Below are positions 22,866 to 46,095 of a DNA stretch of 64,000 bases, piece after piece (within the stretch, counting starts at the first letter, position 1; each line of letters begins with the position of its first letter). The translations under genes were made by a program, and so were the position numbers. The notes beneath the pieces are model-generated. The model saw only the letters and a list, made by a program, of their open reading frames with translations. It had not been told where the DNA came from and did not search any database. Source of the DNA: Micromonospora cremea (GTDB lineage: Bacteria; Actinomycetota; Actinomycetes; Mycobacteriales; Micromonosporaceae); assembly GCF_900143515.1 (NCBI RefSeq), contig NZ_FSQT01000001.1:1054001-1118000 (forward strand), read 5' to 3'.

Positions 22866-23510
22866 CTAGTGGTTGAGGTAGGCGAGGACCGCGCGGACGC
22901 GTCGGTTGGCGTCCTCAGCCGGCGGCAGGTCGAGCTTGGCGAAGATGTTGGTGATGTGCTTCTCCACCGAGACCGGCGCAAGGACGAGCGCGGCGCAGAT
23001 AGCCGCGTTGGACAGGCCCTGGGCCATGAGGCCGAGCACCTCACCTTCCCGTGCGGTGAGCCCGTCGATGCCGTGGTTGCGGCTGTTGCGGGTGAACAGC
23101 TGCCGTACCACCTCGGGGTCCAGGGCGGTGCCACCGTTGGCGACCCGCTGCACCGCGTCGAGGAAGTCGTCGAGGGCGGTGACCCGGTCCTTGAGGAGGT
23201 AGCCCACACCGCCCCGGCCGTCGGCGAGCAGTTCCACGGCGTAGGCCCGTTCGACGTACTGGGAGACGATGAGCACCTTGGTGTCCGGGTCCGTCGCCCG
23301 CAGCGTCAGGGCGGCGCGGAGCCCCTCGTCGCGGAAGCCAGGCGGCAGTCGAACGTCGACGATGGACAGGTCGGGCCGGTGCTCGGTGACGGCCGCCAGC
23401 AGGGCAGGTGCGGTGTCCACGGCGGCGACGACGGTGTGGCCGGTGTCGGTCAGCAGCCGCACCATGCCGTCCCGAAGCAGCAGCAGGTCCTCGGCGATCA
23501 CGATACGCAT
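22866..23510 (-). CDS. LuxR-type (NarL family) response regulator
   Basis: A 214-residue response regulator. The receiver has the acidic pair at Glu7-Asp8, the phosphoacceptor Asp52 (SIVDVRLPP) and the conserved lysine in YLLKDRV. The C-terminal helix-turn-helix (LTAREGEVLGLMAQGLSNAAICAALVL and VSVEKHITNIFAKL) is of the LuxR/NarL type. It is the partner of the histidine kinase whose stop codon shares one base with its start codon. It is the last gene of a four-gene leftward operon with an FtsX-type ABC transporter, which it probably regulates. Confidence 0.93.
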   Translation of the reverse strand: MRIVIAEDLLLLRDGMVRLLTDTGHTVVAAVDTAPALLAAVTEHRPDLSIVDVRLPPGFRDEGLRAALTLRATDPDTKVLIVSQYVERAYAVELLADGRGGVGYLLKDRVTALDDFLDAVQRVANGGTALDPEVVRQLFTRNSRNHGIDGLTAREGEVLGLMAQGLSNAAICAALVLAPVSVEKHITNIFAKLDLPPAEDANRRVRAVLAYLNH

Positions 23511-24727: not shown

Positions 24728-24829
24728 CGCGGCGATTCTATCGGCGGCACCCCACGCGGCCACCGGCCGGACCCGGCCCCGAACGATCCGGAGGACGGGT
24801 CCGAGCGGCGATCCGTTCGGAAGCACCTG

Positions 24830-27370: not shown

Positions 27371-28119
27371 CGGATGGTCACCGCCGTCATCTGGGCCGCG
27401 ACCTTCTCGGCGGTCGGGTCGGCGAGTTCGGTGACGATCCGCCCGTCGGCGAGGAACACCGCACGGTCGGCCCACGCCGCGGCGGTCGGGTCGTGCGTCA
27501 CCATGACGATCGTCGTGCCGATCTGGTCCACGGCCTCACGCAGCAAACCGAGCACCTCGCGGCCGGTCGACAGGTCCAGCGCGCCGGTCGGCTCGTCGGC
27601 GAAGATGACCTCCGGCCGGCTGGCGAGCGCGCGGGCGAGCGCGACCCGCTGCCGCTGACCGCCGGACAGTTGGCCGGGCCGGTCGTCCTCCCGGCCGGTG
27701 AGCCCGACGCGGCGCATCACCTCCCGCGCCCAGTCTCGGTCCGGTCGCGTTCCGGCCAGCCGTTGTGGGAGCAGGACGTTGTGCCAGACCGACAGTGAGT
27801 CCATCAGGTTGTACGACTGGAAGACGAACCCGACCCGCTGCCGCCGTGCCTCGGTGAGCCGGGGCTCACGCAGCCCGCCGATGTCCTGACCGGCGAGGAG
27901 CACGCGGCCACTGTCCGGCCGATCCAGGCCCGCCGCACAGTGCAGGAGCGTCGATTTGCCCGAGCCCGACGGACCCATCACGGCGCAGAACGAACCGGCC
28001 TCGAAGGCGACCGACACGCCATCCAACGCCCGGACACCGCCCCCACCGGCATAGGTCTTCGTCACGTCGAGCACCTCGACGACCAGCCCGCGAGCGGGGG
28101 TAACATCGCTGTTTCGCAT
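27367..28119 (-). CDS. MacB/LolD-type ABC transporter ATPase
   Basis: A 250-residue ATPase that energises the FtsX-type permease encoded next. It has Walker A GPSGSGKST, Q-loop FVFQSYNLMDSLS, signature LSGGQRQRVALARAL, Walker B VIFADEPTGALD and the H-loop VMVTHD, the classic MacB/LolD/BceA set. The start at 28119 is preferred; an in-frame start at 28158 would add 13 unconserved residues. As the first gene of the ATPase-permease-kinase-regulator operon, its promoter should lie in 28120-28225, which also holds the end of the next leftward gene. Confidence 0.92.
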   Translation of the reverse strand: MRNSDVTPARGLVVEVLDVTKTYAGGGGVRALDGVSVAFEAGSFCAVMGPSGSGKSTLLHCAAGLDRPDSGRVLLAGQDIGGLREPRLTEARRQRVGFVFQSYNLMDSLSVWHNVLLPQRLAGTRPDRDWAREVMRRVGLTGREDDRPGQLSGGQRQRVALARALASRPEVIFADEPTGALDLSTGREVLGLLREAVDQIGTTIVMVTHDPTAAAWADRAVFLADGRIVTELADPTAEKVAAQMTAVTIR

Positions 28120-28225
28120 AGCGGAAAGCCTGGTCGACGCGCCGTTTTCGGACCACACGGCGACCCATGATCTCGGTGGTGGGGAAACCCCTACCGAGGG
28201 ATCGGTCCGCCTCCGGGCAGGTCGG

Positions 28226-28969
28226 TCAGTCCGGCAGGCCGGTGCAGGCGACCTCGTCGATGGTGCACGCCGTGGGGGCGGAGCCGATCGACGCGCCGTT
28301 GACCCGGAACGTCACCCGGACCGAGGCGGTGCCGGGCACCTGCCCGGCGCTCTCGTCGGGGACGAACGTCCACACCGCACCATCCTGACTGGCCCACGCG
28401 CCCTCGACCGAGCTGACACGCAGCGACTCCCTGGGCAGGGTGACGACCAGCTTCCACTGCGCCACCGGCACCTGGCCGGGATTGTTGATCGTCACGGCGG
28501 CGCCGTAGCTGAGCAGGGAATTCTCCGCGATGGCGAAGTCGGCGCTCAGGGCGGCCGGCGTGGGTGGAGCAGTCGCGGGGGTCGGTGTGGGCGTGGTGGT
28601 CGACGGCTCGGGGGTCGGCGTCGGTGAAGTTGCCGTCGCCTGCGGGGATGCGGGCCTCGTCGGGCTGGTCGCCGCCGGTCTCGCCTGGCCCGCCCTGGGC
28701 GTGTCGGTGGGCAGCGTGCCCACCTGGTCAGCCGATGGCGGCGGGTCGAGGGTCACCGGCGCCAGCTCTTCCGGCGTTCGCAGCACGCCGACGACGGAGA
28801 CCGCCGTGGCGATCAGCACCCCGAGCGCCGCGACGAGAGCCACCCAGGCGGCCCGCGAGACGTCGCCCCGGCCGGTGACCACCCGCCGTACGGCAGCGGC
28901 GATGGCCACGATCCGGTCCAGCAGAATGATCACCACAGTGCGCCGTGGCTGGGGCGGTGTTGCCGGCAC
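28226..28969 (-). CDS. membrane-anchored protein with CBM2-like domain
   Basis: A 247-residue protein with a short cytoplasmic N-terminus, one transmembrane helix (AAWVALVAALGVLIATAVSV, about residues 39-60), a 70-residue Pro/Thr/Ser-rich linker with repeated TPTP units and a C-terminal beta-sandwich resembling CBM2: SADFAIAENSLLSYGAAVTI, VAQWKLVVTLP, VWTFVPDES and two cysteines near the end. The aromatic set of true cellulose binders is mostly missing, so polysaccharide binding is uncertain. The GTG start at 28969 has a GAGGGGGAG site 7 nt upstream. It follows the DUF742 gene by 73 bp in the same direction and occupies the place where conservons carry their GTPase. Confidence 0.7.
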   Translation of the reverse strand: MPATPPQPRRTVVIILLDRIVAIAAAVRRVVTGRGDVSRAAWVALVAALGVLIATAVSVVGVLRTPEELAPVTLDPPPSADQVGTLPTDTPRAGQARPAATSPTRPASPQATATSPTPTPEPSTTTPTPTPATAPPTPAALSADFAIAENSLLSYGAAVTINNPGQVPVAQWKLVVTLPRESLRVSSVEGAWASQDGAVWTFVPDESAGQVPGTASVRVTFRVNGASIGSAPTACTIDEVACTGLPD

Positions 28970-29042
28970 TACCTGTCTCCCCCTCAATTCGTCACCGGAC
29001 ACGCGCCTGCGCTCCCCCGGTCGGGGGTGCCACCCGTCCCGG

Positions 29043-29426
29043 TCACAGCGCGCGAAGCCCGACGAGTATCGCCTCAAGCAGGTCCGCGGTCGGCAGCTCC
29101 GACAGCGTCGGCGGTTCGTGCGTCTCGATCAGCCCGGCCGTGAGCAGGTCACCGAGGAGAACCCGGACGGTCCCCAGGGGCAGGTCCAACTCGGCGCCGA
29201 CCTCAGCCACCGACAATGGATGGTGACACAGCTCGACGATCCGCGCCTGTTCGGGGAAGAGCGGCGCACGCGGTGTGGCCCCCCGCCGGGCGACGACCAG
29301 TGAGATCAGGTCGAACCGCCCGCGGTCGGTCGCGGTGCGTCCGCCGGTCATCGTGTAGGGACGGGCCACCGGGCCGGCGTCGTCGTCGTACCACGCCTCG
29401 TCAGCGGTGTCGGAGGTGTGCACCAC
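29043..29426 (-). CDS. DUF742 family protein (CvnC-like)
   Basis: A 127-residue cytoplasmic protein of the DUF742 family. It shows VARPYTMTGGRT at the N-terminus, then a winged-helix-like body with HHPLSVAEVGAELDLPLGTVRVLLGDLLTAGLI. In Streptomyces conservons this protein is CvnC; it associates with a roadblock protein and a small Ras-like GTPase downstream of an atypical kinase. Start is one of two adjacent GTG codons (29426 or 29423), inside the 3' end of the roadblock gene, an overlap of 26 nt typical of these operons. Confidence 0.88.
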   Translation of the reverse strand: MVHTSDTADEAWYDDDAGPVARPYTMTGGRTATDRGRFDLISLVVARRGATPRAPLFPEQARIVELCHHPLSVAEVGAELDLPLGTVRVLLGDLLTAGLIETHEPPTLSELPTADLLEAILVGLRAL

Positions 29427-29850
29427 TGTCCCCGCTCCTCGCCGCGGAGGCCGGTTCCAGGCTGACGGGCAGGTGCCGCTCGGCCTGTCCCACGAACAGC
29501 GCCACCTCGTACGCCATGTCCCCGACCTCGGCGTCGTCCCCGGCGATCCGAACGGTGAGGATGGTCCCGTTGCGGATGGTGGCGACGAACAGGAACGCCC
29601 GCGACATCTGCACCACGATCTGGCGCAGCCCGCCCGCGTCGCAGGTCCGGGTGGCGGCCAACCCCAACGCCAGCAGGCCGGCGACCACGCCGGAGATCTG
29701 CTCGGCCAGCCTCGCCTCGACATGCCGGGACCCGCCCAGCGGCAGCCCGTCCGGAGAGAGCACCACCGCGAACTCCGCGCCACGCACCCGGTCGACCAGG
29801 CGGTCCAGGGCGCCGGTCAGGCTGTCTCCGGTGACCACTGCATGCGTCAT
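29401..29850 (-). CDS. roadblock/LC7 domain protein (CvnB-like)
   Basis: A 149-residue roadblock/LC7 protein: FAVVLSPDGLPLGGSRH at the first strand, EQISGVVAGLLALGLAATR helix, QIVVQMSRAFLFVATIRNGTILTV sheet and a final helix ending in a polar tail. Roadblock proteins act as GTPase-activating or scaffold subunits; in conservons CvnB binds CvnA, CvnC and the GTPase CvnD. The ATG overlaps the kinase stop codon by 4 nt. No GTPase partner is encoded in this operon. Confidence 0.92.
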   Translation of the reverse strand: MTHAVVTGDSLTGALDRLVDRVRGAEFAVVLSPDGLPLGGSRHVEARLAEQISGVVAGLLALGLAATRTCDAGGLRQIVVQMSRAFLFVATIRNGTILTVRIAGDDAEVGDMAYEVALFVGQAERHLPVSLEPASAARSGDSGAHLRHR

Positions 29851-31820
29851 CGATGTCTCCTTGCTGCTCTCGCGACCGGCAACTCGACGGTGTCGGGGCC
29901 GGTGGTGCCGGGTTCGGGCCGGGTCGGACCGGGTTGGCGGGTCCGTACCGGCAGCTCGCCGTGGCCGCTCGGGCCCGGCTCGCCGGCTGCTGCCCGGGCC
30001 GGCCGGTCCGCGGCGTCGGGGGGCGACGTGGCCGCTCCGCCACCGGCGCCGGTGACCGTGACCGTGACCAGCCTGGCCGGAAGGAGCACGATCGCGGCCG
30101 TCCCGCCGCGCTGGCTGGGACGCAGCGACACCCGTACGCCACAGCGGGCGGCGAGCACGGCGGCGGTGTACAGCCCGGCCGGGCCGGCGGGCGGACCGTC
30201 CGGGGGCGGGTTGCCGAGCAGGTGGTTCGCCTCGGCCAGCGCGGTCGCGTCGAGCCCCGGGCCGTCGTCGACGACCAGGATGGCGCAGCCCTGCGGCCGG
30301 TGTTCACCGGCGACCCGGACGGTGGTCTCCGCCGCCGAGAAGGCGAGGGCGTTCTCGATCAGCTCGGCCAGCAGATGGACGACGTCCGTGACGGCGGGGC
30401 CGGCGAGCGTCCAGGGCCAGTGCGGCGCGATCAGGACCCGGTGGTAGTCCGGCACCTCGGCGACCGCACCGCGTGCGACGTCGAGCAGCGGCACCGGGCG
30501 CCGCCACCGGCGGGCTGGCGTCGCGCCGGCCAGGGCGATCAGCTTCTCCACGTTGCGCCGGACACGGGTGGTGAGGTGGTCGAGCCGGAACAGCTCGTCG
30601 GTCTCCTCGGCGGCTCGCTCCCGCCGCTGCATACCGTCCAGCAGGTTGAGCTGGTCGCGTAGCAGCACCTGGTTGCGTCGGGTGAGCCGCAGGAACAGGT
30701 CCCGCGTGGCGCGTTCGGTCGCCGTAGCCTCCCCGGGCTGGGCCGGGGTCTCGACGCCCGCCGTGACATCGGGTCGGGCCAGCGCCGCGCTGACCGGTGG
30801 CTCCGGCCAGCGGCGGTCGGTGCCTGATCGGGCCACCTGGTCGGTCAGCCGGCGGACCGCGCCGGCCCAGCTCAACAGCACCACGATCACCGCGATCAGG
30901 CCGAGCCCCACCACGGCGCCGGTGCGTGCGACGATCACGGCGGCACCCGGCGTGGCCCGCTCGACACTGCTGCGGGCGGTCGTGGTCACCAACGCGTGCA
31001 GCGCGCCGAGGGCCGCGTCCGCCGCCGCCCGCCAATCCGGCCCGGTGATTCCGTTCAGGGGGTTCGCGCTGTCCGTCCGCAGCAGCGCGTCCTCCAGGGC
31101 GAGCAGGTCCGCGAACTGCGGGCCCGCCGTGAGCCGCTGATGCTCTCCCGGGCCGTCGGCCGGCAGCCCGGCGGTCGCCTCGGCGCCCGCGTACCGCCGG
31201 TTGCTGACCAGGTCGGCCAGGCGGCGCCGCTCCTCGGTGGAGATCCGGTCACCTGCCAGGGCGGCGCTGACCAGGGTGTCCTCCCGGGCCAGCAGCTCGC
31301 GGGCGCGGGCCAGCGCGATCACCGCACGGGTGTCGGCGGCGAGCGCACTCTCGTACGCGCCCCACTCCGGGCCGTACACGGCGAAGGCGGCGTCGACGAG
31401 CTGGTCGTACCCGTCGACCGCCTCGGCGCGGTCGAGCCGCTCGGCGTCCACCTGGGACCGGACGGTGCTCAGGCCGTTCAGTCGCCGGCCCAGCTCGTCG
31501 GCCCGGTCGCGGACCGCGTCGGCGGTGAGCAGCCGCAGGTCGCGGCCCTCGGTGAACGCGCGAACTTCGGCGACCGCCCGGTCGGTCCCCGCACGTGCCC
31601 CGGCGAGCGCGGTCCCCGGCCGTCCGGCCGCGGCGATCGTCTCGGCGGTGAGCCGGCGCTCGGTCTGCAGGCTCAGGATCAGCCGGTCGATGGGCTGGCC
31701 CAGGGTGTCCGCCAGGGTCCGTACCCGGAGCAGGTCAGCCGCGTCCTGGACGCTCAGGTAGGCCGCGTACGACCAGAGCGTGGCCAGTACGGCCGCCAGC
31801 GCGACGAGCCGGGTCCGCAT
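29847..31820 (-). CDS. nitrate/nitrite-sensor-type histidine kinase (CvnA-like)
   Basis: A 657-residue membrane kinase. A first transmembrane helix (residues about 4-22), an extracellular NIT-like helical sensor domain (about 30-290, with LILSLQTERRLTAETIAAAGRPG), a second membrane helix (VVGLGLIAVIVVLLSWAGAV) and an ATPase domain with ELIENALAFS and DDGPGLD. A likely phosphoacceptor helix has RLDHLTTRVRRNVEKL. The ATG at 31820 has GAGGA 7 nt upstream; a further in-frame GTG at 31937 would overlap the preceding luxR gene by 50 nt. It is the sensor of the cvnABC-like set, lying 67 bp after the STAND-LuxR gene. Confidence 0.85.
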   Translation of the reverse strand: MRTRLVALAAVLATLWSYAAYLSVQDAADLLRVRTLADTLGQPIDRLILSLQTERRLTAETIAAAGRPGTALAGARAGTDRAVAEVRAFTEGRDLRLLTADAVRDRADELGRRLNGLSTVRSQVDAERLDRAEAVDGYDQLVDAAFAVYGPEWGAYESALAADTRAVIALARARELLAREDTLVSAALAGDRISTEERRRLADLVSNRRYAGAEATAGLPADGPGEHQRLTAGPQFADLLALEDALLRTDSANPLNGITGPDWRAAADAALGALHALVTTTARSSVERATPGAAVIVARTGAVVGLGLIAVIVVLLSWAGAVRRLTDQVARSGTDRRWPEPPVSAALARPDVTAGVETPAQPGEATATERATRDLFLRLTRRNQVLLRDQLNLLDGMQRRERAAEETDELFRLDHLTTRVRRNVEKLIALAGATPARRWRRPVPLLDVARGAVAEVPDYHRVLIAPHWPWTLAGPAVTDVVHLLAELIENALAFSAAETTVRVAGEHRPQGCAILVVDDGPGLDATALAEANHLLGNPPPDGPPAGPAGLYTAAVLAARCGVRVSLRPSQRGGTAAIVLLPARLVTVTVTGAGGGAATSPPDAADRPARAAAGEPGPSGHGELPVRTRQPGPTRPEPGTTGPDTVELPVARAARRHR

Positions 31821-31887
31821 CCGCCGGTCCTCGGGCCGCGTCACGCTTCGCACCGCCCGGTCCGCCCGCGTCCACCGCGTTGCCGCC

Positions 31888-34473
31888 TCATCGGGCCGTC
31901 CGTTGCGGCCACGGCTGGCCGGCCGCGTTGCTGGCACGGTCGGCGACCATGGTGCGCAGCAGCGCCAGCAGCTCGGCGCGGTTGGCGCAGTTGAGCCGGT
32001 TGCGCATCCGGGCCACGTGGTGCTCCACGGTCTTGGCCGAGATGAAGAGCCGGTCGCCGATCTCGCGATAGGTCAGCCCGGCCAGCACCAGCTCGGCCAC
32101 CTCGTATTCGCGGTCGCTGAGCCCCTGCTGGGTGGGGCCGGTGGCGGCGTCGGCGACCTGGGCGGCGCTCTCGCCGGTGGCGGGCCGCTGCCCGCCGTTG
32201 GCTCCGGCGGGCCGGCCCTGCAGGACTCGGGCGCACTCCAGCAGGGTGGTCATCGCCCGCCGGTCCGAGGTGCGGATCGCGGCCTGCCCGGCGAGGCGAG
32301 CGCCGTCCCAGCACAGCCCGGTGTCGTGCAGCCCCCGGGCGGCGGCCTCCACCCGGACCGGGTCGACCACCCCCCGCAGCACCTCCACCCAGCTCTCGGC
32401 GGCCGCGGCGACCACGGCCGCGTACCGGCTGTGGCCCGCGGCGGCGAGCAGGGCGGCGACGTGTTCGTCGGCGGCCACCGGCTCGTCGGTCAGGATCGCG
32501 GCGTGCAGCCCGCTCCAGTGCAGCGGGACGCTCCACAGTGCCGGTTCCCCGAGCCGGCCGAGCAGCGCGCGGCCCTCCCGCAGGTACGGCTCCAGTCGGG
32601 CCAGGTCGCCCAGCCGGGCGCCCGCGATGGCGAGCTCGCCCAGCGGTAGCAGCGCGAACAGGTCGACGGGGTGCCGAACGACCGCCTCCAGCGCCTGCCC
32701 CCAGCCGCGCTTGAGCGCGCCGAGGTCGCTGTTGCGCCGAGCGATGCCCATCTGGAGCGCGGCGGCGAAGAGCTGGTCGCGTGACTCCAGCGGCCGCCCG
32801 TCGACCGCCACCGCGGCGAGGTGTTCGGCCGCGGCGAGCGTCTGGCCCCGGACCATCAGGATCCAGGCCTGCAACAGCCGGTGACGGCGGGCCATCAGCG
32901 GGCCGCCGACACCGGCCGCCAGGGCCCGGTGCAGCACCCGTTCGGCGATCTCCAGCTCACCGCAGTGCACGGCGGTCAGGGCAGCCAGCGCGGCGGGGCT
33001 GTCCGGTAGGAGGGCGGCCCGCCCGTCCGGTTCCAGCAGCGCGGCGGCCTGCACGAGCGCGGAGAGCGCGGCGGTCGGCGTGCCCGCGACACTCTCCCGT
33101 ACACCGTCGGCCATCAGCCGGGCGGCGCTGGCGTGCAGCGTGGGTGGTTCGCCGGCCGGGTCGCCCGTCGGCGGCTCGGTAGCGGCGGCCAGGTCGCCGG
33201 TGGCGAGCCCGCCGACGGTGGCGAACGCCAGCGACGAGGAGGTGCCGGCCCATCGGTACAGCTCCACGCTGCGGTCGGCGTGACCGCGGTGCGCCAGGGC
33301 GGTCGCGGCCACGATGGCGGCCTCCGTGCGGTCGACGGGAGCGGCCGCGGCCAGTAGTCGGTCCGCCAGTCGCAGGGCGCCATCGAGATTGCCGGCGAGC
33401 GCCGCGGCCAGCGCCTGCCGGGCGCTGCCCGGCCATCCGGCTGCCGTGGCGGCGGCGAACAACTCCGCGGCGAAGGCCGGCTCATCGGCCAGCGCCTCCT
33501 CCGCGGCGGCCGCCAACGTGGCGGCCGGGCAGTCACCGAGCACGCCGACCGCGAGCAGCGACCGGACCAGCGGCAGCACCGCGCCGCCGCGCGCGAGCTG
33601 CAACTCGGTGAGCCGACGCCAGACCGCGGTGCGGTCCGTGGCCGGGCTGAGCGCGGTGACGGCCCGCCGGACGATCGGCGCGAGCCGGCCATCGGCGCCG
33701 AGCAGCCCGGCCGCCCTGGTCGTCGCGATCAGCTCATCCACCGCCTCCGGCTCGCGGCCCAGGAGCGCGCCGAGCATGCTCACCGGCAGCGGCACACCCG
33801 CCGCGACGGCGAGCAGCAGTCGGCGGACATCGGCGGGCAGGACCTCCAGGTCCGGCCCGAACTCCAGGACGACGGAGCGCGGTGGCTCCGCCGGGACGCC
33901 GGTGCCGTTCTCCGGCCCGCGCAGCCCGCGGGCCAGCCGCTCGACGTCCCGGGGCACGCCGGCGGTCTGTGCGTGCACGAAGTCGACCAGGTCGCTCCGC
34001 CGGCCCAGCCCGGGCACGGCGGCGAGGTGGGCGGCGGTCTGCTCCCGGGTGAACGCGGTGAGCAGCAGGGCCCGCCCGTCCCGGCGCAGGGCGTCGGCCA
34101 GCTCCATGAGGGCCGCCGAGCGGGGCCACGGGCGGTGGGCGACCACCAGCCGGTGCCGATGGGTGGCCACCAGGCGCAGCAGCGCCCCGAGCCGCGCGTC
34201 GTCGAGCAGGTGCGCGTCGTCGACCAGCACCAGCGCGTCGGGGTCGACCGGTTCGCTCGGCTCCGGGGCGCCCATGTGCACGGCGATCCCGGCCTGCTGT
34301 TGGACCCGGGCCAGCTCCGCGAGCAGCGCGGTCTTGCCGTGGCCGCCCGGCCCGGCCAGGCCAACGGTGAGCGGACCGGTCGGGTCCTGCGCGACCATGT
34401 CCAGCAGGGCCGTCGGCCCCTTGCCCAGGATCAGCCTGGACTCGGCGACGTCATTAATGATCATTGTGGTCAT
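31888..34473 (-). CDS. STAND-type LuxR family regulator (IniR-like candidate)
   Basis: An 861-residue regulator. The N-terminal ATPase has a P-loop GPGGHGKTALL at about residues 40-50 and a Walker B ALVLVDDAHLLDD; a long TPR-like middle region is followed by a LuxR helix-turn-helix at the C-terminus (LSDREYEVAELVLAGLTYREIGDRLFISAKTVEHHV, about 785-820). The start ATG overlaps the hsp70-like stop codon by 4 nt. Length and architecture resemble IniR (Rv0339c), which, as I recall, activates iniBAC in mycobacteria in response to trehalose. Since iniB-, iniA- and iniC-like genes are divergently encoded here, it is a good candidate activator of them; that link is inference. Confidence 0.86.
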   Translation of the reverse strand: MTTMIINDVAESRLILGKGPTALLDMVAQDPTGPLTVGLAGPGGHGKTALLAELARVQQQAGIAVHMGAPEPSEPVDPDALVLVDDAHLLDDARLGALLRLVATHRHRLVVAHRPWPRSAALMELADALRRDGRALLLTAFTREQTAAHLAAVPGLGRRSDLVDFVHAQTAGVPRDVERLARGLRGPENGTGVPAEPPRSVVLEFGPDLEVLPADVRRLLLAVAAGVPLPVSMLGALLGREPEAVDELIATTRAAGLLGADGRLAPIVRRAVTALSPATDRTAVWRRLTELQLARGGAVLPLVRSLLAVGVLGDCPAATLAAAAEEALADEPAFAAELFAAATAAGWPGSARQALAAALAGNLDGALRLADRLLAAAAPVDRTEAAIVAATALAHRGHADRSVELYRWAGTSSSLAFATVGGLATGDLAAATEPPTGDPAGEPPTLHASAARLMADGVRESVAGTPTAALSALVQAAALLEPDGRAALLPDSPAALAALTAVHCGELEIAERVLHRALAAGVGGPLMARRHRLLQAWILMVRGQTLAAAEHLAAVAVDGRPLESRDQLFAAALQMGIARRNSDLGALKRGWGQALEAVVRHPVDLFALLPLGELAIAGARLGDLARLEPYLREGRALLGRLGEPALWSVPLHWSGLHAAILTDEPVAADEHVAALLAAAGHSRYAAVVAAAAESWVEVLRGVVDPVRVEAAARGLHDTGLCWDGARLAGQAAIRTSDRRAMTTLLECARVLQGRPAGANGGQRPATGESAAQVADAATGPTQQGLSDREYEVAELVLAGLTYREIGDRLFISAKTVEHHVARMRNRLNCANRAELLALLRTMVADRASNAAGQPWPQRTAR

Positions 34474-35735
34474 CCTTTGCGTCCCCGGCTTCGGGCCAGT
34501 GCCAGGCGGGACGCCTTCGGCAGTTCCAGTGGGAGGATCCGGATTGGGGGGCGGGGTGGCGGATCGCCCGGGACGATGGTGTCGTGGTGGTGGCGGCGCG
34601 TCGCCGGGATGGCGGCCCGACCGGCACCGGAGACCGGCGCCGGTTCGCGGACCGGCTCCGGTCGGCGGGGACGCGGCGACACCACCTGGCAGGCGGCCAT
34701 CGCCGCCCCGGTGGCGGCGGTGAGTTGTGAATCCGGCTCCACCTCGACGGGGACCGGAAGGGCCGTGGTGATCAGCTCGGTGACGAGCGGGATGCGGGCG
34801 GAACCGCCGGCGAGCAGGACGCCGTCGAGCTGCGCCGGTGCCAGGCCGGCGCCGTGCACGGTCCGGAGCAGCAGGTCGACGGTGGCCTGCACCGTCGGGC
34901 GGATCATGCCCTCGAACTGTGCCCGGGTCACCGGTATCCGCGCCGGGCCGGCCGGCAGGGGCAGCACCACGTCGGCTGCCAGGTCGACGGTCAGCTCCCG
35001 CTTGACCCGCTCGCACTCCGGAAGGAGACCGCGCAGGGCGGCCTGGGTGCCCCGACGTGCGGTGGCGGCCAACTCCCGGGCCAGCACGGTGCGTACGTGC
35101 CCGGCCAGCGCCTCGTCGAAGTCGGTGCCGCCGATCGGATCGAGGCCCTGCGGGACGCCGAAACTCTCGTACGTGCCGCGTGGGGTGCGGCGCACCAGGG
35201 CCGCCTCGAAGCTGTTGCCCCCCAGCGCGTAGACCGCTGCCGTGGTGCCCGCGAACCCGCGGGCCGCGTGGCTCTCGGCCACCGTGACCGTGAGGGGCAG
35301 CAGCGTCACGTTGCGCAGGCCGAGGTCGAACAGCGCCCGGTGCAGCAGATCCCGCCGGTACGGGCGCCAGCCCGCCGGATGGCTGAGCACGATCGCCTCG
35401 GCCGGGCCGCCCTCGAGGGCGTACACCCGCTCCACCACCCACGTCGCCAACTCGGCGGTGAGCGTCTGCGGCGCGCATGCTTCGCCGCCGAGCAGCAGGG
35501 GCACGTCGTCGCCGATCCGGCGGACGAAGTCCCTCGTGGTGCGGCTGCCGTCGTCGGTAAGGGGCTCGCCGACGTGCAGCGAGCCGTCCTCGGACAGGTG
35601 CAGCACCGACGGCACGAGGGTCGAGCCGGCGTGCAGGGGGACCGCCTCGGGACGCGTCCAGGTCGTACCATGTCGCCGCGCGACGGCGGCGGCGGTGTTG
35701 GTGTTTCCGATGTCTATCCCCAGGACGTACGGCAT
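34470..35735 (-). CDS. Hsp70-like ATPase without substrate-binding domain
   Basis: A 421-residue actin-fold protein of the Hsp70/DnaK family. It has the phosphate-1 motif VLGIDIGNTNTAAAV, DPIGGTDFDEAL for phosphate-2 and the adenosine motif LDGVLLAGGSARIPLV. DnaK is about 620 residues; here the peptide-binding and lid domains are replaced by a 70-residue Pro/Arg-rich tail, so it is not a general chaperone. Two starts are possible: 35744 with a ribosome site too close, or 35735 with GGAGAG about 9 nt upstream; I prefer 35735. Operonic with the STAND-LuxR gene and divergent from the IniB-like gene. Confidence 0.87.
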   Translation of the reverse strand: MPYVLGIDIGNTNTAAAVARRHGTTWTRPEAVPLHAGSTLVPSVLHLSEDGSLHVGEPLTDDGSRTTRDFVRRIGDDVPLLLGGEACAPQTLTAELATWVVERVYALEGGPAEAIVLSHPAGWRPYRRDLLHRALFDLGLRNVTLLPLTVTVAESHAARGFAGTTAAVYALGGNSFEAALVRRTPRGTYESFGVPQGLDPIGGTDFDEALAGHVRTVLARELAATARRGTQAALRGLLPECERVKRELTVDLAADVVLPLPAGPARIPVTRAQFEGMIRPTVQATVDLLLRTVHGAGLAPAQLDGVLLAGGSARIPLVTELITTALPVPVEVEPDSQLTAATGAAMAACQVVSPRPRRPEPVREPAPVSGAGRAAIPATRRHHHDTIVPGDPPPRPPIRILPLELPKASRLALARSRGRKG

Positions 35736-36034
35736 CCGTTTCATCTCTCCCCGTGAGTTGGCCGGCCGGTGGCGATCGCGTCGGCGCTGCCCGGCGACCC
35801 ACCCCCGGCGAACCCCGCGGGCTCCTACGTTCGTACCAGAGATCGCTCCCTGGTCGGGACCCTAATCTGGCCGGGACGGTTTCCCCCAGTCCCCCTAACG
35901 TACGAGGTTGCGGAGACCCTAATGCAGCGGGCCAGGATGCGGGCCGAGCCCCGATGTCCGGGGTCGCTCCCCGAAATAACGTCACTGTCGACGAACGACG
36001 GTCGCTGACGCCACATCCGAGGAGAAACCGGCAC
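35736..36034. promoter_or_regulatory. divergent promoter region, hsp70-like / iniB-like
   Basis: About 300 bp without a gene between two oppositely directed operons. ACCCTAAT occurs twice as a direct repeat (near 35859 and 35916), each followed by a GC-rich stretch; this could be an activator site. A GAGGAG ribosome site precedes the iniB-like ATG. In mycobacteria the iniB promoter is the inducible one, so this is where a regulator would be expected to bind. Confidence 0.45.
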
Positions 36035-36943
36035 ATGGACTCGAACCAGACCCTCCACGACTTCGTGCTCGACCTGCTGACGAACCCCGACGCGCGGTCG
36101 GCCTTCGACCTCGACCCGGAGGGCGCGCTGAACGCCGCGGGGCTCACCGACATCACGGCCGCCGACGTGCAGGACGTGGTTCCGCTGGTGGTCGACTACG
36201 CCCCGGGCCAGGGCCTCGCGCCGCTGGCCCCGGTCGGGCAGCTCGGGTTCGACCCGCTGGTGACCGACGCCACCGACGTGGTCGGTCAGCTCCAGAGCGT
36301 GGCGCAGCAGATCAGCATCACCAGCGCTCCCAGCGGCCTGGACGTCAAGGCCGGCGTGCTGGGCGCCATCGCGGTCGACCCGACGACGGTCGCCGCCGGC
36401 GTCACCGTGCTGCCGGGGATCGGCGTGGGTGTCGGTCCGAACGGCCTCGACACCGACCTGACCGGTGTGTCCGACGTGGCGCACACCCTCGACGCCGACG
36501 TGGTGGAGCCGGTGGACGGCATCGTGGACCCGGTTGTCGGTGACGTCACCGGCACGGTGGGCAACCCGACCGGCCTGATCGGCACCACCGACCCGGGTCT
36601 GCTCGGTGGCGACCTGCTCGGCGGCGACCTGACCGGTGGTGTCCTCTCCGGCACCGAGGGTCAGCTCGGCGGTGTCGTCGACTCTCTCGGTGTCGACGAC
36701 ACCCTGGGCGGGCTTGGCCTGGGTGACGGCGGCGGCGTCGTCGGCGGCGTGGTCCCGCCGCTCGACGTGCCGTCCGTGGTGGGCGGCGTGACGCACCAGG
36801 TGGACGGGCTCGTCCCCGGTGTCACCGGCACGGTCGGTGACGTGACCGGCGGCCTCACCGATGGCGTGACCGGCGACCTGCTCGACGGGGGGCACGGCTC
36901 GTCCGACAGTGGACTGCTGGGCATCACCGGCGGTCTGCTCTGA
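36035..36943 (+). CDS. IniB N-terminal domain protein with Gly/Val/Asp-rich repeats
   Basis: A 302-residue protein. The first 65 or so residues (MDSNQTLHDFVLDLLTNPDA, RSAFDLDPEGALNAAGL, ITAADVQDVVPLVVDYAPG) match the IniB N-terminal domain. The remainder is low complexity, rich in Gly, Val, Asp, Leu and Thr with irregular repeats such as GDVTGTVGNPTG, LLGGDLLGGDLTGG and GVTGTVGDVTGG, without cysteine or tryptophan. No signal peptide is visible. Mycobacterial IniB is the first gene product of iniBAC, induced by cell-wall inhibitors; its molecular role is unknown. A 112-bp gap with an imperfect hairpin (around 36975-37003) and an AT-rich stretch separates it from the GTPase gene, so a second promoter is possible. 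Confidence 0.87.
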   Translation: MDSNQTLHDFVLDLLTNPDARSAFDLDPEGALNAAGLTDITAADVQDVVPLVVDYAPGQGLAPLAPVGQLGFDPLVTDATDVVGQLQSVAQQISITSAPSGLDVKAGVLGAIAVDPTTVAAGVTVLPGIGVGVGPNGLDTDLTGVSDVAHTLDADVVEPVDGIVDPVVGDVTGTVGNPTGLIGTTDPGLLGGDLLGGDLTGGVLSGTEGQLGGVVDSLGVDDTLGGLGLGDGGGVVGGVVPPLDVPSVVGGVTHQVDGLVPGVTGTVGDVTGGLTDGVTGDLLDGGHGSSDSGLLGITGGLL

Positions 36944-37055
36944 CGGGGATTCCCGGTAGGAGCGGGAGGCCGGATCGCCGTGGGCGGTCCGGCCCTCTCC
37001 GGTTCCACATCCGGTCCCTCTTGATAATTGAGCCGAAATCCGCACACTTGGTGCG

Positions 37056-38915
37056 GTGATGGCGGGGATCTGGTTGGACGTGCTGGACGAGATCGCCCGC
37101 ACGTGCAACGCACACGGCCGAGGTGACCTGCTCCAGACGGTGCGGCAGAAGCGTGCCCAACTGCTGGACCCGAAGCTTCGCGTCCTGGTCATCGGGGAAC
37201 CGAACCAGGGCAAGAGCCAGCTGATCAACGCGATCATCAACGCGCCGGCCTGCCCGGTCGGCGACGGCCGCACCACCGTTCTGCCGACCGTGGTGCAGCA
37301 CGCCGACGTCGCGTCCGCCGCCGTGGTGCAGGCGCCGCCACCGGCCCCGGGCCGGCCCGCCGGCGCCGCGCCCGCGGCGATCGTCGAGCGGTCTCCGGTG
37401 GCGCTCAACCAGGTCGCGGCGGGGGTGGCCGGCACGATAGGGCGTCGGCCGGGCGGCGGCCCGGCGTACGTCGAGATCGGGCTCCCCCGCGCCCTGCTCG
37501 GCGCCGGACTGGTGCTGGTGGACACTCCCGGCACCGACCAGATCACCGCGCTCGGCGGCAACGCCCCGGTCGCCGCTCCCACCCGTGCGGACACCGTGCT
37601 GCTGGTCTCCGACTCCACTCGGGAACTCTCGGTCACCGAGTTGAACATGTTGCTGCACGCCATGCGCTCGCATCCGAACGTGGTCGTGGTGCAGAGCAAG
37701 ACGGATCTCGTGGCGGACTGGCGCGCGGTCGCCGAGCGCAACCGACAGCACCTGGCCGACGCGGGCGTCCCGGCGCCCGTGATCCCGGTCTCGGCGGCGT
37801 TGCGGCTGCGCGCGGCCGCGGCCGACGACCGTGGCCTCAACGCCGAGTCGGGCTTTCCCGCGCTGATCGCCCGGTTGCAACGGGACCTGTCCGGCAAGGC
37901 CGATCAGCTGGCCCGGGCCTCGGTGCAGGGGGTCGCCCGGACGGTGGTGGAGCAGTTGGCCGCGCCGTTGCGCGCCGAGCTGGCGACCCAGGAGGCCGAG
38001 GAGCAGTCCGGGCCGATCTCCCGGCTGCACGCGGCCCAGCGTGAGGTCGACGAGCTGCGCCGCTGCTCCACCCGGTGGCAGAACACCCTCACCGACGAGA
38101 TGGCCGACCTGCTCTCGGACATCGAGTACGACCTGCGCGACCGGACCCGGCAGATCCTGCGCACGGTGGACGAGGCGTTCGACACGGCCGATCCGTTGGT
38201 CGCGTGGGACACCTTCCAGGACTGGCTGGAGCGGAGCCTGGTGGAGGCGGCGGAGGCGAACCACGAGTGGCTGATCCAGCGCTGCGACTGGATCGCCCGC
38301 CGGGTGGCCGCCAACTTCGCCCGGTACGGCTACGACGTGTTGCCGCCCTGGTCCATGACGATGCCCGAGGACATCGGTGGCCGGCTGCCGGAGCTGGAAC
38401 GGCCGAGGATCGACAAGTTCACCACCGGTCAGAAGCTGTTCACCGGCATGAAGGGCTCGTACGGCGGCATGCTGATGTTCGGTCTGGCGACGACGTTGGC
38501 CGGGATGCCGATGATCAATCCGGTCTCGGTCGGCATCGGCGCGCTCTTCGGCGGCAAGAGCATCCGCGACGAGAGCAAGCAGTTGCTGCGGCGCCGACAG
38601 GCGACCGTCAAGACGGCGATCCAGCGGCATGTCGACGACTTCTTCGTCCGGATGATCAGGGACTGCCGGGACGCCGCCCGGCAGGTGCAGCGGATGCTGC
38701 GCGACCACTTCACGGGGCTGACCGAGGAGCTCCAGGAGGCCATCGTCCAGTCGTTCCGCAGCGCGAAGCAGGAGGCCGACACCGATGCCGCGCTGCGTGA
38801 CCAGCGGCAGCGCGAGATCCGGCTGAAGATGACCCGGTTGGCCGCGCTCTACGAGCAGGCCCAGCAGCTGAGCGCTAGCCGCGCGGCTCCGGTGCTGCTG
38901 GAGCCTCGGGCGTGA
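37056..38915 (+). CDS. dynamin-like GTPase, IniA-like
   Basis: A 619-residue bacterial dynamin-like protein, close to the length of mycobacterial IniA (about 640). GTPase motifs are G1 GEPNQGKSQ, G3 LVDTPGTDQ and G4 QSKTDLV. A long helical stalk follows, and a Gly/Met-rich hydrophobic hairpin at about residues 465-500 (YGGMLMFGLATTLAGMPMINP) corresponds to the membrane-inserting paddle. IniA remodels membranes and is required for isoniazid and ethambutol tolerance in mycobacteria (family knowledge). The start is GTG 37056 or the next codon ATG 37059. Its stop overlaps the IniC-like start by 4 nt, so the two GTPases are made together. Confidence 0.88.
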   Translation: MMAGIWLDVLDEIARTCNAHGRGDLLQTVRQKRAQLLDPKLRVLVIGEPNQGKSQLINAIINAPACPVGDGRTTVLPTVVQHADVASAAVVQAPPPAPGRPAGAAPAAIVERSPVALNQVAAGVAGTIGRRPGGGPAYVEIGLPRALLGAGLVLVDTPGTDQITALGGNAPVAAPTRADTVLLVSDSTRELSVTELNMLLHAMRSHPNVVVVQSKTDLVADWRAVAERNRQHLADAGVPAPVIPVSAALRLRAAAADDRGLNAESGFPALIARLQRDLSGKADQLARASVQGVARTVVEQLAAPLRAELATQEAEEQSGPISRLHAAQREVDELRRCSTRWQNTLTDEMADLLSDIEYDLRDRTRQILRTVDEAFDTADPLVAWDTFQDWLERSLVEAAEANHEWLIQRCDWIARRVAANFARYGYDVLPPWSMTMPEDIGGRLPELERPRIDKFTTGQKLFTGMKGSYGGMLMFGLATTLAGMPMINPVSVGIGALFGGKSIRDESKQLLRRRQATVKTAIQRHVDDFFVRMIRDCRDAARQVQRMLRDHFTGLTEELQEAIVQSFRSAKQEADTDAALRDQRQREIRLKMTRLAALYEQAQQLSASRAAPVLLEPRA

Positions 38916-40372
38916 CCGTCGGGCTGCGGTTGGACGAGGCCGCGTGGGGGTTGCTGCACCAGGCCATCGACCTCTACCAGGACAACCCCCGGGCCGTCGG
39001 GCGGTTGCGGCATCAGGTGGCCCGGTTGGAGCAACCGCTGCGGATCGCGGTCGCGGGCCCCTGGCGTGCCGGCAAGTCGACGGTGCTGAACGCGCTGATG
39101 GGGGAGGAGGTCGCGCCGGTCGAGGGAGCCGACGGCGTCTTCACCTGGTACGAGGACGGCGCCCAGCCGCACGCCACCGCATACCCGGCCGGCCAGCCTC
39201 CGCAGGAGTTGACGGTGGTCAAGTCGGCGACCGGGATGCGGGTGGACCTCGGCTGGGGGGCGGGGGAGGTGCGCGACATCGTGGTGCAGTGGCCGACGCG
39301 CGCACTGCGCCAGGTGACCCTCATCGACACCCCGGCGGCCACCAGCAGCGGTGAACAGGGTCGCGTGCCGGTGATGGACCGGGTGCTGCGGGACGCGGAC
39401 GCGGTGTTGTACCTGACCCGCGATGGTCGCGACAGCGATCTGCGGGCGTTGGAGTCCGGCCGGGAGAGTGCGGTCGGGCAGGCCGCGCCGGTAAATGTGA
39501 TCATGGTGCTGTCCCGCGCGGACGAGACCGGTGGTGGCCGGATCGACGGGCTGCTCACCGCCCGCCAGCTGGCCCGGCGGCACCACCGGGATCCGCGGGT
39601 CAGCGCGCTCTGCGTGAACGTGGTGGCGTGTAGCGGGGCGATCGGTCTGGCGGGCCGGATGCTCAGCGAGTCGGACTTCGCCGCGCTCGCGACGCTGGCC
39701 CGGGTGTCCCGGGCGGAGCTGGAGGCGCACCTGCTCTCCGCCGACCGCTTCCTCCGTGGCGAACTGCCGGTACGGCTGGACCCCGAGGTGCGCGCGGCAC
39801 TGCTGGATCGGTTCGGGCTCTTCGGGATCCGGCTGGCGGCCACCCTGGTCCGTAGCGGCTTCGACAGCCGGGTGAAGCTGTCCGCCGAACTCATCCGCCG
39901 TAGTGGGCTCACCGAGCTGCGCGAGTCGATGACCCGCTGCTTTCTCGATCGCCGCGACACGCTGAAGGCCCGGTCGGCGTTGGCCGCTGTGGAGGCCCTG
40001 GTGCGAGCCGAGCCCGTGCGGGGCGCCGACGAGCTGGTCGGCGCGGTCGAGCAGATCCTCGCCGGTGCGCACGAGTTCCGGGAGCTCCGCCTGCTGGTCA
40101 CGCTGCGCAACAGCCGGCTCGGGTTCGACGCCGAGCTGGTCGCCGAGGCGCAGCGGCTGATCGGTGGCGACGGGGTCGGGCTGGCGGCCCGACTCGGCGT
40201 CGAGCACGAGGCGACCGTGCAGCGGCTCTGGGAGGTCGCCGCCGAGGCGCAGTGGCGATGGCGGGACCGGGCCGAGGACCCGCTGCTCCCACTGGCTCAA
40301 CGGCGCGGCGCGCAGGTCATCGTCCGCAGCTGCGAGGGGATGCTCGCCGAGCTGGCCGCCGGCGGCCGGTGA
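38912..40372 (+). CDS. dynamin-like GTPase, IniC-like
   Basis: A 486-residue dynamin-family GTPase, near the length of mycobacterial IniC (about 493). G1 is GPWRAGKSTVLNAL, G3 LIDTPAATSS and G4 LSRADETG. The helical C-terminal half lacks an obvious hydrophobic paddle, unlike its partner, as expected if the pair forms an asymmetric heteromer with only one membrane-inserting subunit. GTG start overlaps the upstream stop (GTGA). The gene closes the B-A-C operon; the following 519 bp carry operators for the next locus. Confidence 0.88.
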   Translation: MTVGLRLDEAAWGLLHQAIDLYQDNPRAVGRLRHQVARLEQPLRIAVAGPWRAGKSTVLNALMGEEVAPVEGADGVFTWYEDGAQPHATAYPAGQPPQELTVVKSATGMRVDLGWGAGEVRDIVVQWPTRALRQVTLIDTPAATSSGEQGRVPVMDRVLRDADAVLYLTRDGRDSDLRALESGRESAVGQAAPVNVIMVLSRADETGGGRIDGLLTARQLARRHHRDPRVSALCVNVVACSGAIGLAGRMLSESDFAALATLARVSRAELEAHLLSADRFLRGELPVRLDPEVRAALLDRFGLFGIRLAATLVRSGFDSRVKLSAELIRRSGLTELRESMTRCFLDRRDTLKARSALAAVEALVRAEPVRGADELVGAVEQILAGAHEFRELRLLVTLRNSRLGFDAELVAEAQRLIGGDGVGLAARLGVEHEATVQRLWEVAAEAQWRWRDRAEDPLLPLAQRRGAQVIVRSCEGMLAELAAGGR

Positions 40373-40554: not shown

Positions 40555-40891
40555 TGCGCGACGCTAGCGGCGGAAGTGACATCCACCACCCCGGTCGCGG
40601 CGGTAATGACGTGCTGCACGAGCCGCGCCGGATTCGGCGGGAGGCGGGGGCGCGATTTGGACGTTGCAATCTCGCGACATGCCGGACGGTCGCCAGTGGA
40701 CCGATGCACACCACTGTCGCCAGATCTGCCTGGCGGTCACCGCGAGCGGTCGCGGTGGTCGACGGCATCGCCCTGGCGTCGCGGCTCCGGCCCGCCCCGG
40801 CGATACCAACGAATGAAGGACCCGGACTGATCCTCGCTCGCGGAACCCGCGTAGCGGCTCCCTCCGAACGATGAACCCTAGGAGAGCAACC

Positions 40892-42187
40892 ATGATGAGA
40901 ACCTTGAGCAGGCGCACTGCTCTGCGTTCATTGGCAGGAGTCCTCGTGGCGGCGCTGACCGTGGGCGTGGCCGCGTGCAGCAGCGACGACGGCGGCACGA
41001 GCGCGGCCGAGGCCGGGCCCAACGGCGTCGACGACGGCAGCGAGCTCACCCTGTGGACCCGCGCGCCCCTGGAGAAGCAGGCGAAGCTTCTCGTCGACGC
41101 GTACAACGCCGGCCACCAGAACAAGGTCAAGCTGACCGTCGTACCCAACGACGACTACGTCGCGAAGGTCGGTGCGGCGGCAGGCTCGGACGGCCTTCCG
41201 GACCTCTTCGCCGCGGACATCGTCTACGTGCCGAACTGGGTGAAGCAGGGCCTCTTCCAGGATCTCAGCGCCAACATCGACGGCCTCAGCTTCAAGGACT
41301 CCATCAACAAGGGCCACCTCTCGGCCGGCACCGTGGAGGGCAAGAAGCACGTCCTGCCCTTCGTGCTGGACCTGTCGATGCTGTTCTGGAACAAGCAGCT
41401 GTTCAAGGAGGCCGGGCTGGACCCGGAGAAGGCCCCGGCGACGCTCGACGAGTACGCCGCCGCCGCCAAGGCGGTCCAGGCGACCAAGAAGAACGGCGTC
41501 TACGGCACGGCGACCGGTCTGAACTGCGGCGGCTGCCTGGTCTTCACCTGGTTCCCGTCGATCTGGGCCGGCGGCGGGGAGGTGCTGAGCGAGGACGGCA
41601 CCGAGTCCAAGCTCGCCGACGACACCGCCCAGAAGGTCTACAGCACCTGGAACGACCTGTGGAAGTCCGGTGCCGTTCTGCCCGCCTCCGAGGGTGAGAC
41701 GGGTCCGACCTGGACCGCCCCGTTCACCGAGGGCAAGGTCGGTCTGATGCTCTACCCGGCGACGCTGCTCTCCTCCACCCCGTTCGACGTCGGTGTGGCC
41801 CCGATCCCCGGCCCCAGCGGTGGTGGCTCCACCTTCGTCGGCGGGGACGGCATCGGCGTGTCGAAGGACTCGAAGAAGGCGGCTCAGGCCTGGAACTTCC
41901 TCAGCTGGATGATGTCCGAGGACGCCCAGGTCGAGGTGCTGGCGAAGAACAAGGACGTGGTGTCCCGCGCCGACCTCGCGAACAACAAGTACGCCGCCGA
42001 GGACCCGCGGCTGGTCACCATCAACGAGGCGGCCGGCAAGGGCGACACCCCCGTCGCACTGAACTTCCAGCAGGCGTTCAACGCGCCGAACAGCCCCTGG
42101 CTGACCCTCGTCCGCAATCGGGTGCTGAACGGCAGCGGCGACCTGCAGAAGGACAACGGCGAGATCACCGCCGTGCTCAAGCAGTAG
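40892..42187 (+). CDS. ABC sugar transporter substrate-binding lipoprotein
   Basis: A 431-residue extracellular solute-binding protein of family 1. The signal peptide ends in a lipobox, LTVGVAACSSDDGG, predicting lipidation of the cysteine at about residue 29. The mature part has the maltose-binding-like order ELTLWTRAPLEKQ, DDYVAKVGAAAGSDGLPDLFAAD and WNFLSWMMSEDAQVEVL. It should deliver an oligosaccharide to the two permeases encoded next; the surrounding enzymes suggest beta-L-arabinobiose or arabinose. ATG 40892 is set by AGGAGAG; an earlier in-frame ATG at 40871 lacks a ribosome site. Confidence 0.92.
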   Translation: MMRTLSRRTALRSLAGVLVAALTVGVAACSSDDGGTSAAEAGPNGVDDGSELTLWTRAPLEKQAKLLVDAYNAGHQNKVKLTVVPNDDYVAKVGAAAGSDGLPDLFAADIVYVPNWVKQGLFQDLSANIDGLSFKDSINKGHLSAGTVEGKKHVLPFVLDLSMLFWNKQLFKEAGLDPEKAPATLDEYAAAAKAVQATKKNGVYGTATGLNCGGCLVFTWFPSIWAGGGEVLSEDGTESKLADDTAQKVYSTWNDLWKSGAVLPASEGETGPTWTAPFTEGKVGLMLYPATLLSSTPFDVGVAPIPGPSGGGSTFVGGDGIGVSKDSKKAAQAWNFLSWMMSEDAQVEVLAKNKDVVSRADLANNKYAAEDPRLVTINEAAGKGDTPVALNFQQAFNAPNSPWLTLVRNRVLNGSGDLQKDNGEITAVLKQ

Positions 42188-42198
42188 GTGCGCACCGC

Positions 42199-42241
42199 GG
42201 GCGTGTGCCGACCAATGCCTCCCAAGGGCCGGCACACGCCC
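42199..42241 (+). terminator. 12-bp stem-loop between binding protein and permease
   Basis: GGGCGTGTGCCG at 42199-42210 pairs perfectly with CGGCACACGCCC at 42230-42241 (19-nt loop), 11 nt after the binding-protein stop. In sugar ABC operons such hairpins protect the upstream message or partly terminate transcription, giving more binding protein than permease. Confidence 0.7.
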
Positions 42242-42304
42242 ACGGCGGGAAACGACCCGCAGGTGTCAGCGACCGCCCCCCCGCCGATCGATCGAGAGGT
42301 TCCC

Positions 42305-43222: not shown

Positions 43223-43227
43223 CGCCG

Positions 43228-44139: not shown

Positions 44140-44141
44140 CC

Positions 44142-46064: not shown

Positions 46065-46095
46065 CCAGATGTCACGGGCCGAGAGGCTCCCTGAT

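Follow-up and report, generated by a model that had tools for sequence, protein, structure and literature searches.

In a 64,000-nucleotide window from Micromonospora cremea (contig NZ_FSQT01000001.1, here C1, at 1054001-1118000; the whole stretch of DNA analysed, with positions counted from its first letter), nine genes at 28226-40372 form a divergent locus that is likely to be an ini-type envelope-stress system, in which a box-bound IniR-like protein would activate IniB, IniA and IniC with the help of an Hsp70-type partner and an added sensor input. Five of these genes, an Hsp70-like/IniR-like pair divergent from IniB-IniA-IniC, make up a core that is conserved beyond Micromonospora, and direct CCCCTAAY-type boxes occupy the intergenic region between the Hsp70-like gene and iniB. 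A preceding sequence-only reading of this DNA had placed all nine genes at one divergent locus, and each was confirmed as an open frame with domain matches at the positions listed here. The Hsp70-like, IniR-like, NIT kinase, roadblock, DUF742 and CBM2-anchored proteins are encoded on the minus strand and IniB, IniA and IniC on the plus strand.

28226-28969, minus strand: CBM2-type membrane-anchored protein (Pfam CBM_2 26.2 bits, cut-off 24).
29043-29423, minus strand: DUF742 protein, CvnC-like and winged-helix-like (PF05331 118 bits).
29401-29850, minus strand: roadblock/LC7 protein, CvnB/MglB-like (PF03259 57 bits).
29847-31937, minus strand: NIT-domain histidine-kinase-like protein, CvnA-like (PF08376 123 bits, HATPase_c 30 bits).
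31888-34473, minus strand: IniR-like STAND-LuxR activator, 861 amino acids (NF038181 481 bits over residues 23-844; GerE).
34470-35735, minus strand: protein of 421 amino acids with an Hsp70/actin-type nucleotide-binding domain (NBD) only (PF00012 84 bits).
35736-36034, no strand: divergent promoter region between the Hsp70-like gene and iniB, with blocks conserved across families.
35859-35866, plus strand: proposed IniR box ACCCTAAT, 90 bp upstream of CCCCGATG.
35892-35899, plus strand: proposed IniR box CCCCTAAC, 57 bp upstream of CCCCGATG.
35916-35923, plus strand: proposed IniR box ACCCTAAT, second copy, 33 bp upstream of CCCCGATG.
35949-35956, plus strand: iniB promoter element CCCCGATG, recognised by sequence conservation.
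36035-36943, plus strand: IniB (NF038175 69.8 bits, cut-off 40).
37056-38915, plus strand: IniA-type dynamin-like GTPase (PF00350 43 bits; 6j72 311 bits over residues 4-608).
38912-40372, plus strand: IniC-type dynamin-like GTPase (PF00350 35 bits; 6j72 27.5 bits over residues 18-174).

A genome scan based on the Hsp70-like protein returned 63 loci, 53 of which carry all five core genes; nine more end at contig ends with the visible core genes in place, and the remaining one (Kosakonia, 27% identity) has the Hsp70 match alone. These loci were selected via Hsp70 and are uninformative on how often Hsp70 is absent. The core is present in Micromonospora, Phytohabitans, Plantactinospora, Pseudonocardiaceae and one Agromyces, in which the gene order differs. 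Among 151 Micromonospora genomes, IniR occurs in 73 and IniB above cut-off in 73, and the two sets are identical. The IniR regions of 44 of these 73 were fetched and all 44 match the five core genes (L191 in pieces); four came as a separate set, and the core is present in each of the other 40. Four more Micromonospora genomes carry a divergent cluster in the order IniA-IniC-Hsp70-IniR-IniB.

Across 197 genomes of the class, IniA matches were found in 31 and IniR matches in 17, all of them among the 31. IniR lies within the IniA stretch in 15 of the 17 (on a separate contig in G107 and G118), and an Hsp70-like gene lies inside it in 16; in the seventeenth, G118, the IniA stretch has only a true DnaK, and an Hsp70-like match sits about 1 kb from IniR on the other contig. 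We rejected an accidental neighbourhood of Hsp70 and dynamin genes, given these 16 of 17 stretches and the presence of an Hsp70-family gene even where IniR is missing, in 7 of 17 such IniA stretches. Three Hsp70 matches (L106 and the first matches of L112 and L113) are true DnaK and were excluded from the Hsp70 counts; 12 others that were tested, including one from each of the seven IniR-less stretches, are not DnaK. Since several families have the five-gene core, the nine-gene arrangement is not a product of chance, and the earlier proposal that the Hsp70-like, IniR and IniBAC genes belong together is borne out by their common divergent promoter with boxes, co-occurrence across families and joint loss.

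To count boxes we used the pattern [CA]CCCTA[AG][TC]. Regions hold on average 2.36 boxes in 70 distinct Micromonospora, 1.83 in 6 other Micromonosporaceae, 1.67 in 3 Plantactinospora-type, 2.00 in 14 Pseudonocardiaceae-type, 2.50 in 6 f2 and 0.40 in 5 f13 regions, compared with 0.03-0.09 in shuffled regions (0.05 for Micromonospora). The f2 group is taken to be mycobacteria-like because six of its genomes have IniR scores of 1136-1433 bits; other f2 genomes score 386-489. Reverse-strand boxes average 0.07 in the Pseudonocardiaceae-type regions and 0.00 in the other groups, and the 17 IniA stretches that lack IniR (about 286 kb in total; three come from genomes with IniR elsewhere) contain no box on either strand. 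Rearrangement at L105 and L084 has left the boxes directly 5' of IniB.

Distances from the boxes to CCCCGATG cluster in slots near 25, 33, 57, 66 and 90 bp. For boxes at 10-130 bp, where the slots take 16 of 121 positions, every box falls in a slot in Micromonospora (165/165), other Micromonosporaceae (11/11), Plantactinospora-type (5/5), Pseudonocardiaceae-type (28/28) and f13 regions (2/2), as do 10 of 13 in f2; the slots were picked after the distances had been seen, and the P values of this spacing test are therefore optimistic. A loose -10-like hexamer is present in 79 of 100 regions with a box and CCCCGATG, always 20-21 bp past CCCCGATG. We propose that the CCCCTAAY boxes are candidate IniR operators. 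Boxes at fixed distances from CCCCGATG in Micromonospora, Pseudonocardiaceae and mycobacteria-like genomes are new: neither the box nor the Hsp70 partner is described in the titles and abstract openings of the open literature among the matches listed (subscription papers fall largely outside this scope), and the passages of PMC5760070 consulted give a ChIP (chromatin immunoprecipitation) peak and a narrow regulon with no binding motif. A box that keeps its sequence and spacing from family to family provides a directly testable operator and regulon rule.

According to a section heading in PMC5760070, IniR induces only iniBAC in mycobacteria, and so a very narrow operator is expected. The M. cremea genome has three copies of the exact pair CCCTAAYN{8,40}CCCTAAY, two of them overlapping at the ini locus and one elsewhere; the backwards control pattern occurs once. 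The third pair precedes a second, unlinked IniB-domain gene (L192:9826-10725 = C1:216325-217224), which lies behind a conservon (NIT, roadblock, DUF742, GTPase) and a monooxygenase-like gene. The 151 Micromonospora genomes hold 12 unlinked IniB genes above cut-off, all in IniR-positive genomes, with an exact box before 9 of them and a CCCGATG element before all 12. These distal promoters are independent of the choice of slots, and with a slightly looser box nine carry one at 56-57, accompanied by one at 33 in eight promoters and by one at 65 in two; in L231 and L232 the sole box is at 123, and L230 has none. The idea that distal IniB genes always sit beside a conservon was dropped, being true of only 3 of the 12 (L192, L229, L235). 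Among 54 genomes searched for exact pairs, 23 of the 24 IniR-positive Micromonospora and all six f2 genomes with IniR have one at their ini locus. Two of the three unlinked tandem pairs inspected, both in f2 genomes, precede IniB-domain genes (60 and 64 bits, cut-off 40).

Profile comparison identifies the 861-residue STAND-LuxR protein as an IniR-like homologue, not the NF038181 equivalog. IniA aligns along its length, by sequence only, to the IniA crystal structure 6j72 (residues 4-608, 311 bits), and this homology, extending over GTPase, neck, trunk and lipid-interacting loop, points to an iniBAC-type operon. IniB passes the NF038175 cut-off with its N-terminal domain; its AlphaFold2 model has helices in the first 55 residues, with block-mean pLDDT (predicted local distance difference test) of 69-85 to residue 50 and mostly below 50 in the remainder, as would be expected of a helical N-terminal domain with a low-complexity body. 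The same domain (36035-36223) weakly matches NHLP-type leader models of ribosomally synthesized and post-translationally modified peptides (E 0.022), as does IniB of L105 (E 0.093); with matches this weak, a relationship to such leaders was set aside and remains a lead only.

The Hsp70-like protein aligns to DnaK (2v7y) over residues 3-346, and its PF00012 match stops at residue 354. No substrate-binding domain was found in its 421 residues, nor by eye in nine printed tails, and its phosphate loop reads ALGGNSFE where DnaK has DLGGGTFD. The nearest proteins among the matches listed are from Micromonospora, at up to 94% identity, and 54 Micromonospora rows have lengths of about 410-432 residues, going by the three shortest and three longest. 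A decaying pseudogene was rejected, as all 54 rows share the NBD-only form. Thus the earlier description of a truncated Hsp70 holds for the absent substrate-binding domain, but not in the sense of a decayed gene.

Transmembrane (TM) helices after the NBD, called with a hydropathy threshold of our own choosing, are absent from the 54 Micromonospora rows and from 5 rows of other Micromonosporaceae. They are present in 2 of 3 Plantactinospora-type, 7 of 14 Pseudonocardiaceae-type, 3 of 5 f13, 1 of 2 f37, both f8, the single Agromyces and all 4 divergent Micromonospora rows, in 8 of 11 f2 rows (8 of 9 once two DnaK rows are removed) and in 6 of 10 rows from IniA loci without IniR. Most of the printed long tails are Pro/Thr/Ala-rich. 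Such forms would fit a membrane-bound ATPase with its tail toward the wall rather than a chaperone. In the f2 genome of L109, three boxes (17486-17524) stand just 3' of IniR and 5' of a second Hsp70-like gene, which suggests that this gene belongs to the regulon. The recurrent Hsp70 partner marks a component of the ini response on which one sentence came up among the matches listed: in the passages seen of PMC5760070, dnaK is mentioned once, in a sentence on M. smegmatis.

Behind IniR lies a sensor module whose make-up varies. An IniR tree was built from 77 distinct rows, after removing duplicate rows, rows in which IniR is broken and rows that extend less than 4.5 kb downstream. NIT, roadblock, DUF742 and CBM2 genes are all present in 42 rows, roadblock only in 12, DUF742-CBM2 in 2, NIT-DUF742-CBM2 in 1, roadblock-DUF742-CBM2 in 1 and none in 19; 58 of the 62 Micromonosporaceae rows have one or more module genes behind IniR (all four in 42). 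The tree, with 20 of its 74 inner forks open, suggests that roadblock came first (Phytohabitans), then DUF742 and CBM2, then NIT, followed by losses. The record L087, titled Rhodococcus rhodnii, falls inside Kibdelosporangium in this tree, as a mislabelled strain or a transfer would. Homologues of CvnA, CvnB and CvnC are adjacent at the M. cremea locus, and no CvnD GTPase (PF03029) is present within the window; the genome has six PF03029 GTPases, all elsewhere, each adjoining NIT, roadblock and DUF742 matches. The CBM2 protein has an N-terminal helix, a TM helix (from alignment and model), a Pro/Thr-rich linker and a CBM2 beta-sandwich. It passes the CBM family 2 profile, and from residue 141 its AlphaFold2 model has block-mean pLDDT of 88-97; Foldseek matches the modelled domain best to 3ndy (E 2.7e-9, TMt 0.80) and also to 6qfs, in support of a confidently predicted CBM2 fold. 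As they differ stepwise in conservon parts, the Micromonosporaceae loci are useful for learning what these parts do without the GTPase.

Several results weigh against a box-bound IniR system with sensor input. Although its match runs along the whole model, the IniR-like protein falls under the NF038181 equivalog cut-off (481 compared with 750 bits). Boxes are missing from three of the five f13 regions and from L104 despite IniR, and, in the four divergent Micromonospora clusters, which also have IniR, from the 700 bp preceding IniB; the IniR-positive genome G305 has no exact pair at its ini locus, and the exact box is absent before 3 of the 12 distal IniB genes. Conversely, pairs are also seen away from the ini locus, and 11 of the 24 genomes that lack IniR have them, many being C-rich repeats and one, in G314, a relic at an orphan roadblock gene; the third unlinked tandem pair (L245) has no IniB gene, and a single box lies about 300 bp before the true dnaK of G118 (L106:10631), where it may be a coincidence or a sign that dnaK is connected to IniR. 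Module genes are found in none of the 15 IniR rows from families outside Micromonosporaceae and are partly lost within this family, so that the core does not need the sensor module.

This last result excludes the conservon genes as core parts: they are a Micromonosporaceae-specific add-on, outside the system proper. The sequence-only reading had joined a conservon-like sensor to the system and named co-occurrence of all nine genes as a check; the first holds within Micromonosporaceae and not in other families, and co-occurrence holds for the five-gene core across families and not for the four conservon-like genes, which are complete in 42 of 77 rows. The add-on genes could even be passengers that serve another pathway and merely use the promoter of the IniR operon, a possibility that we consider real but unlikely. 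Apart from their absence outside Micromonosporaceae and from 4 of 62 rows within, a use of their own is suggested by the roadblock gene, which has orthologues of at least 62% identity in 74 of 151 Micromonospora genomes, M. cremea included (49% in G344), and which persists without IniR in 13 (62-66% identity, G255 lowest). Within about 9 kb of these 13 orphan genes no core gene was found.

Yet 9 of the 13 orphan sites are bordered on either side by sequence that matches a type-B ini locus, with the core gone from the middle; in L178 the second match is short, and L176, L177 and L181 are without the far flank. At L183 the start regions of the Hsp70-like gene and iniB, read by eye, remain beside the roadblock gene. 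The GTACCAgA block is retained at 8 of 13 sites, with at least two boxes at one site and one box at three, whereas 63 of the 70 IniR-bearing regions hold at least two. The core is thus lost as a unit, and boxes tend to decay once IniR is gone; an independent origin of the orphan genes was rejected because these nine look like remnants of ini loss. This also bears on the earlier suggestion that conservon and ini-like genes at separate loci would make their association accidental: 13 of 151 genomes do have roadblock without IniR, but nine of these genes look like such remnants.

Further evidence against passengers comes from retention and gene overlap. At least one module gene is kept behind IniR in 58 of 62 Micromonosporaceae rows, in at least two gene neighbourhoods, while genes flanking the orphan sites recur at no more than 10 of 44 ini loci. 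The NIT, roadblock and DUF742 frames overlap or abut (NIT/roadblock 29847/29850, roadblock/DUF742 29401/29423), NIT overlaps IniR (31888/31937) and the Hsp70-like frame overlaps IniR (34470/34473); in relatives, the genes from Hsp70 to DUF742 overlap or sit tens of bases apart. Given this tight spacing, one operon is expected.

A different role for the roadblock protein would be to act on IniA and IniC, the dynamins replacing the CvnD GTPase as its client. IniA and IniC are the only GTPases recognised among the nine genes, no PF03029 GTPase is near and the IniR-roadblock pair alone is retained in 12 of 77 rows, but contact of roadblock with the dynamins has neither sequence nor structural support, roadblock outlives the core at orphan sites and any of the six GTPases encoded elsewhere could be its partner. 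We therefore judge this role very improbable. An anti-phage defence system with paired dynamins, also raised by the sequence-only reading, is scarcely credible. IniA and IniC weakly match Leo profiles of PADLOC, which come without a curated cut-off (LeoBC and LeoA match IniA at 9.8e-11 and 3.8e-7), the ini locus is patchy (73 of 151 congeners) and a passage in PMC8844932 links B. subtilis DynA to phage resistance. However, the PADLOC scan of the nine genes plus one neighbour turned up neither another Leo-type match nor any other convincing defence hit, and nine more neighbours in 17.8-50.9 kb belong to no defence family by Pfam names. A stress response is a better match for operator-like boxes kept at fixed spacing across families and for a mycobacterial counterpart that envelope drugs induce.

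The locus is flanked on one side by an FtsX/ABC exporter with a sensor kinase and on the other by a sugar-uptake and glycosidase cluster. At 23510-28158 a sensor kinase (PF13796, HisKA_3), an FtsX permease and an ABC ATPase adjoin the sensor module. Sugar ABC transporter genes, then a GH127 beta-L-arabinofuranosidase, then a 1579-residue F5/8-type protein occupy 40871-50897, probably an arabinoside-use cluster.

In the envelope-stress system that we favour, the IniR-like STAND protein, a MalT-type activator, would be switched on by an envelope-damage signal, bind the direct CCCCTAAY boxes in the divergent promoter and turn on IniB, IniA and IniC. By analogy, IniA and IniC would remodel or cut the plasma membrane, keeping it intact. 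The Hsp70-type ATPase, predicted to be co-transcribed with IniR, would most likely be a regulator of IniR or a sensor of energy or damage and would have no part in protein folding. The Micromonosporaceae have added to the IniR operon a conservon module without its GTPase and a CBM2 anchor protein that would face the wall, and both may supply further input. Mycolic acids are present in mycobacteria and not expected in Micromonospora. Passages of PMC5760070 report that mycobacterial iniBAC is induced by envelope drugs, that ChIP places IniR upstream of iniBAC in M. tuberculosis, that IniR activates iniBAC in M. marinum and that mycobacterial IniR is partly MalT-like, trehalose being its proposed signal; M. 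smegmatis IniA performs GTP-dependent membrane fission, according to a passage in PMC6715688. In a bolder version, which we regard as quite unlikely as a whole, ini would be a pan-actinobacterial regulon governed by the fixed-spacing operator, in which a non-chaperone Hsp70-type ATPase monitors the wall and gates IniR. This ATPase would originally have been a membrane-spanning NBD with a Pro/Thr-rich outer stalk; in Micromonospora the NBD would have turned soluble, the separate TM-stalk-CBM2 protein of the operon would have taken over the outer part and the GTPase-less conservon would relay the signal.

Compared with known systems, the Hsp70-like protein shares with DnaK/Hsp70 chaperones the NBD, alignable to DnaK residues 3-346, but differs in lacking a substrate-binding domain, in its altered phosphate loop and, in many relatives, in a TM anchor and Pro/Thr/Ala-rich tail. 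With the conservon, an actinobacterial G protein system of four core proteins including a small GTPase (as given in the part of PMC13343842 consulted), the locus shares NIT kinase, roadblock and DUF742 in the same order, but it has a CBM2-anchored protein instead of the CvnD GTPase and is joined to the IniR operon. In the mycobacterial iniR/iniB*-iniB-iniA-iniC locus (Boot et al. 2017, PMC5760070, in the passages seen) a STAND-LuxR protein likewise adjoins IniB-IniA-IniC, with 818 residues in M. marinum and 861 here. Unlike its mycobacterial counterpart, the M. cremea locus has an IniR below the equivalog cut-off, an Hsp70-like gene between IniR and IniB and a sensor module behind IniR; the IniB N-terminal domain and full-length IniA homology are common to both, and box pairs lie at the locus in all six mycobacteria-like genomes with IniR that were searched.

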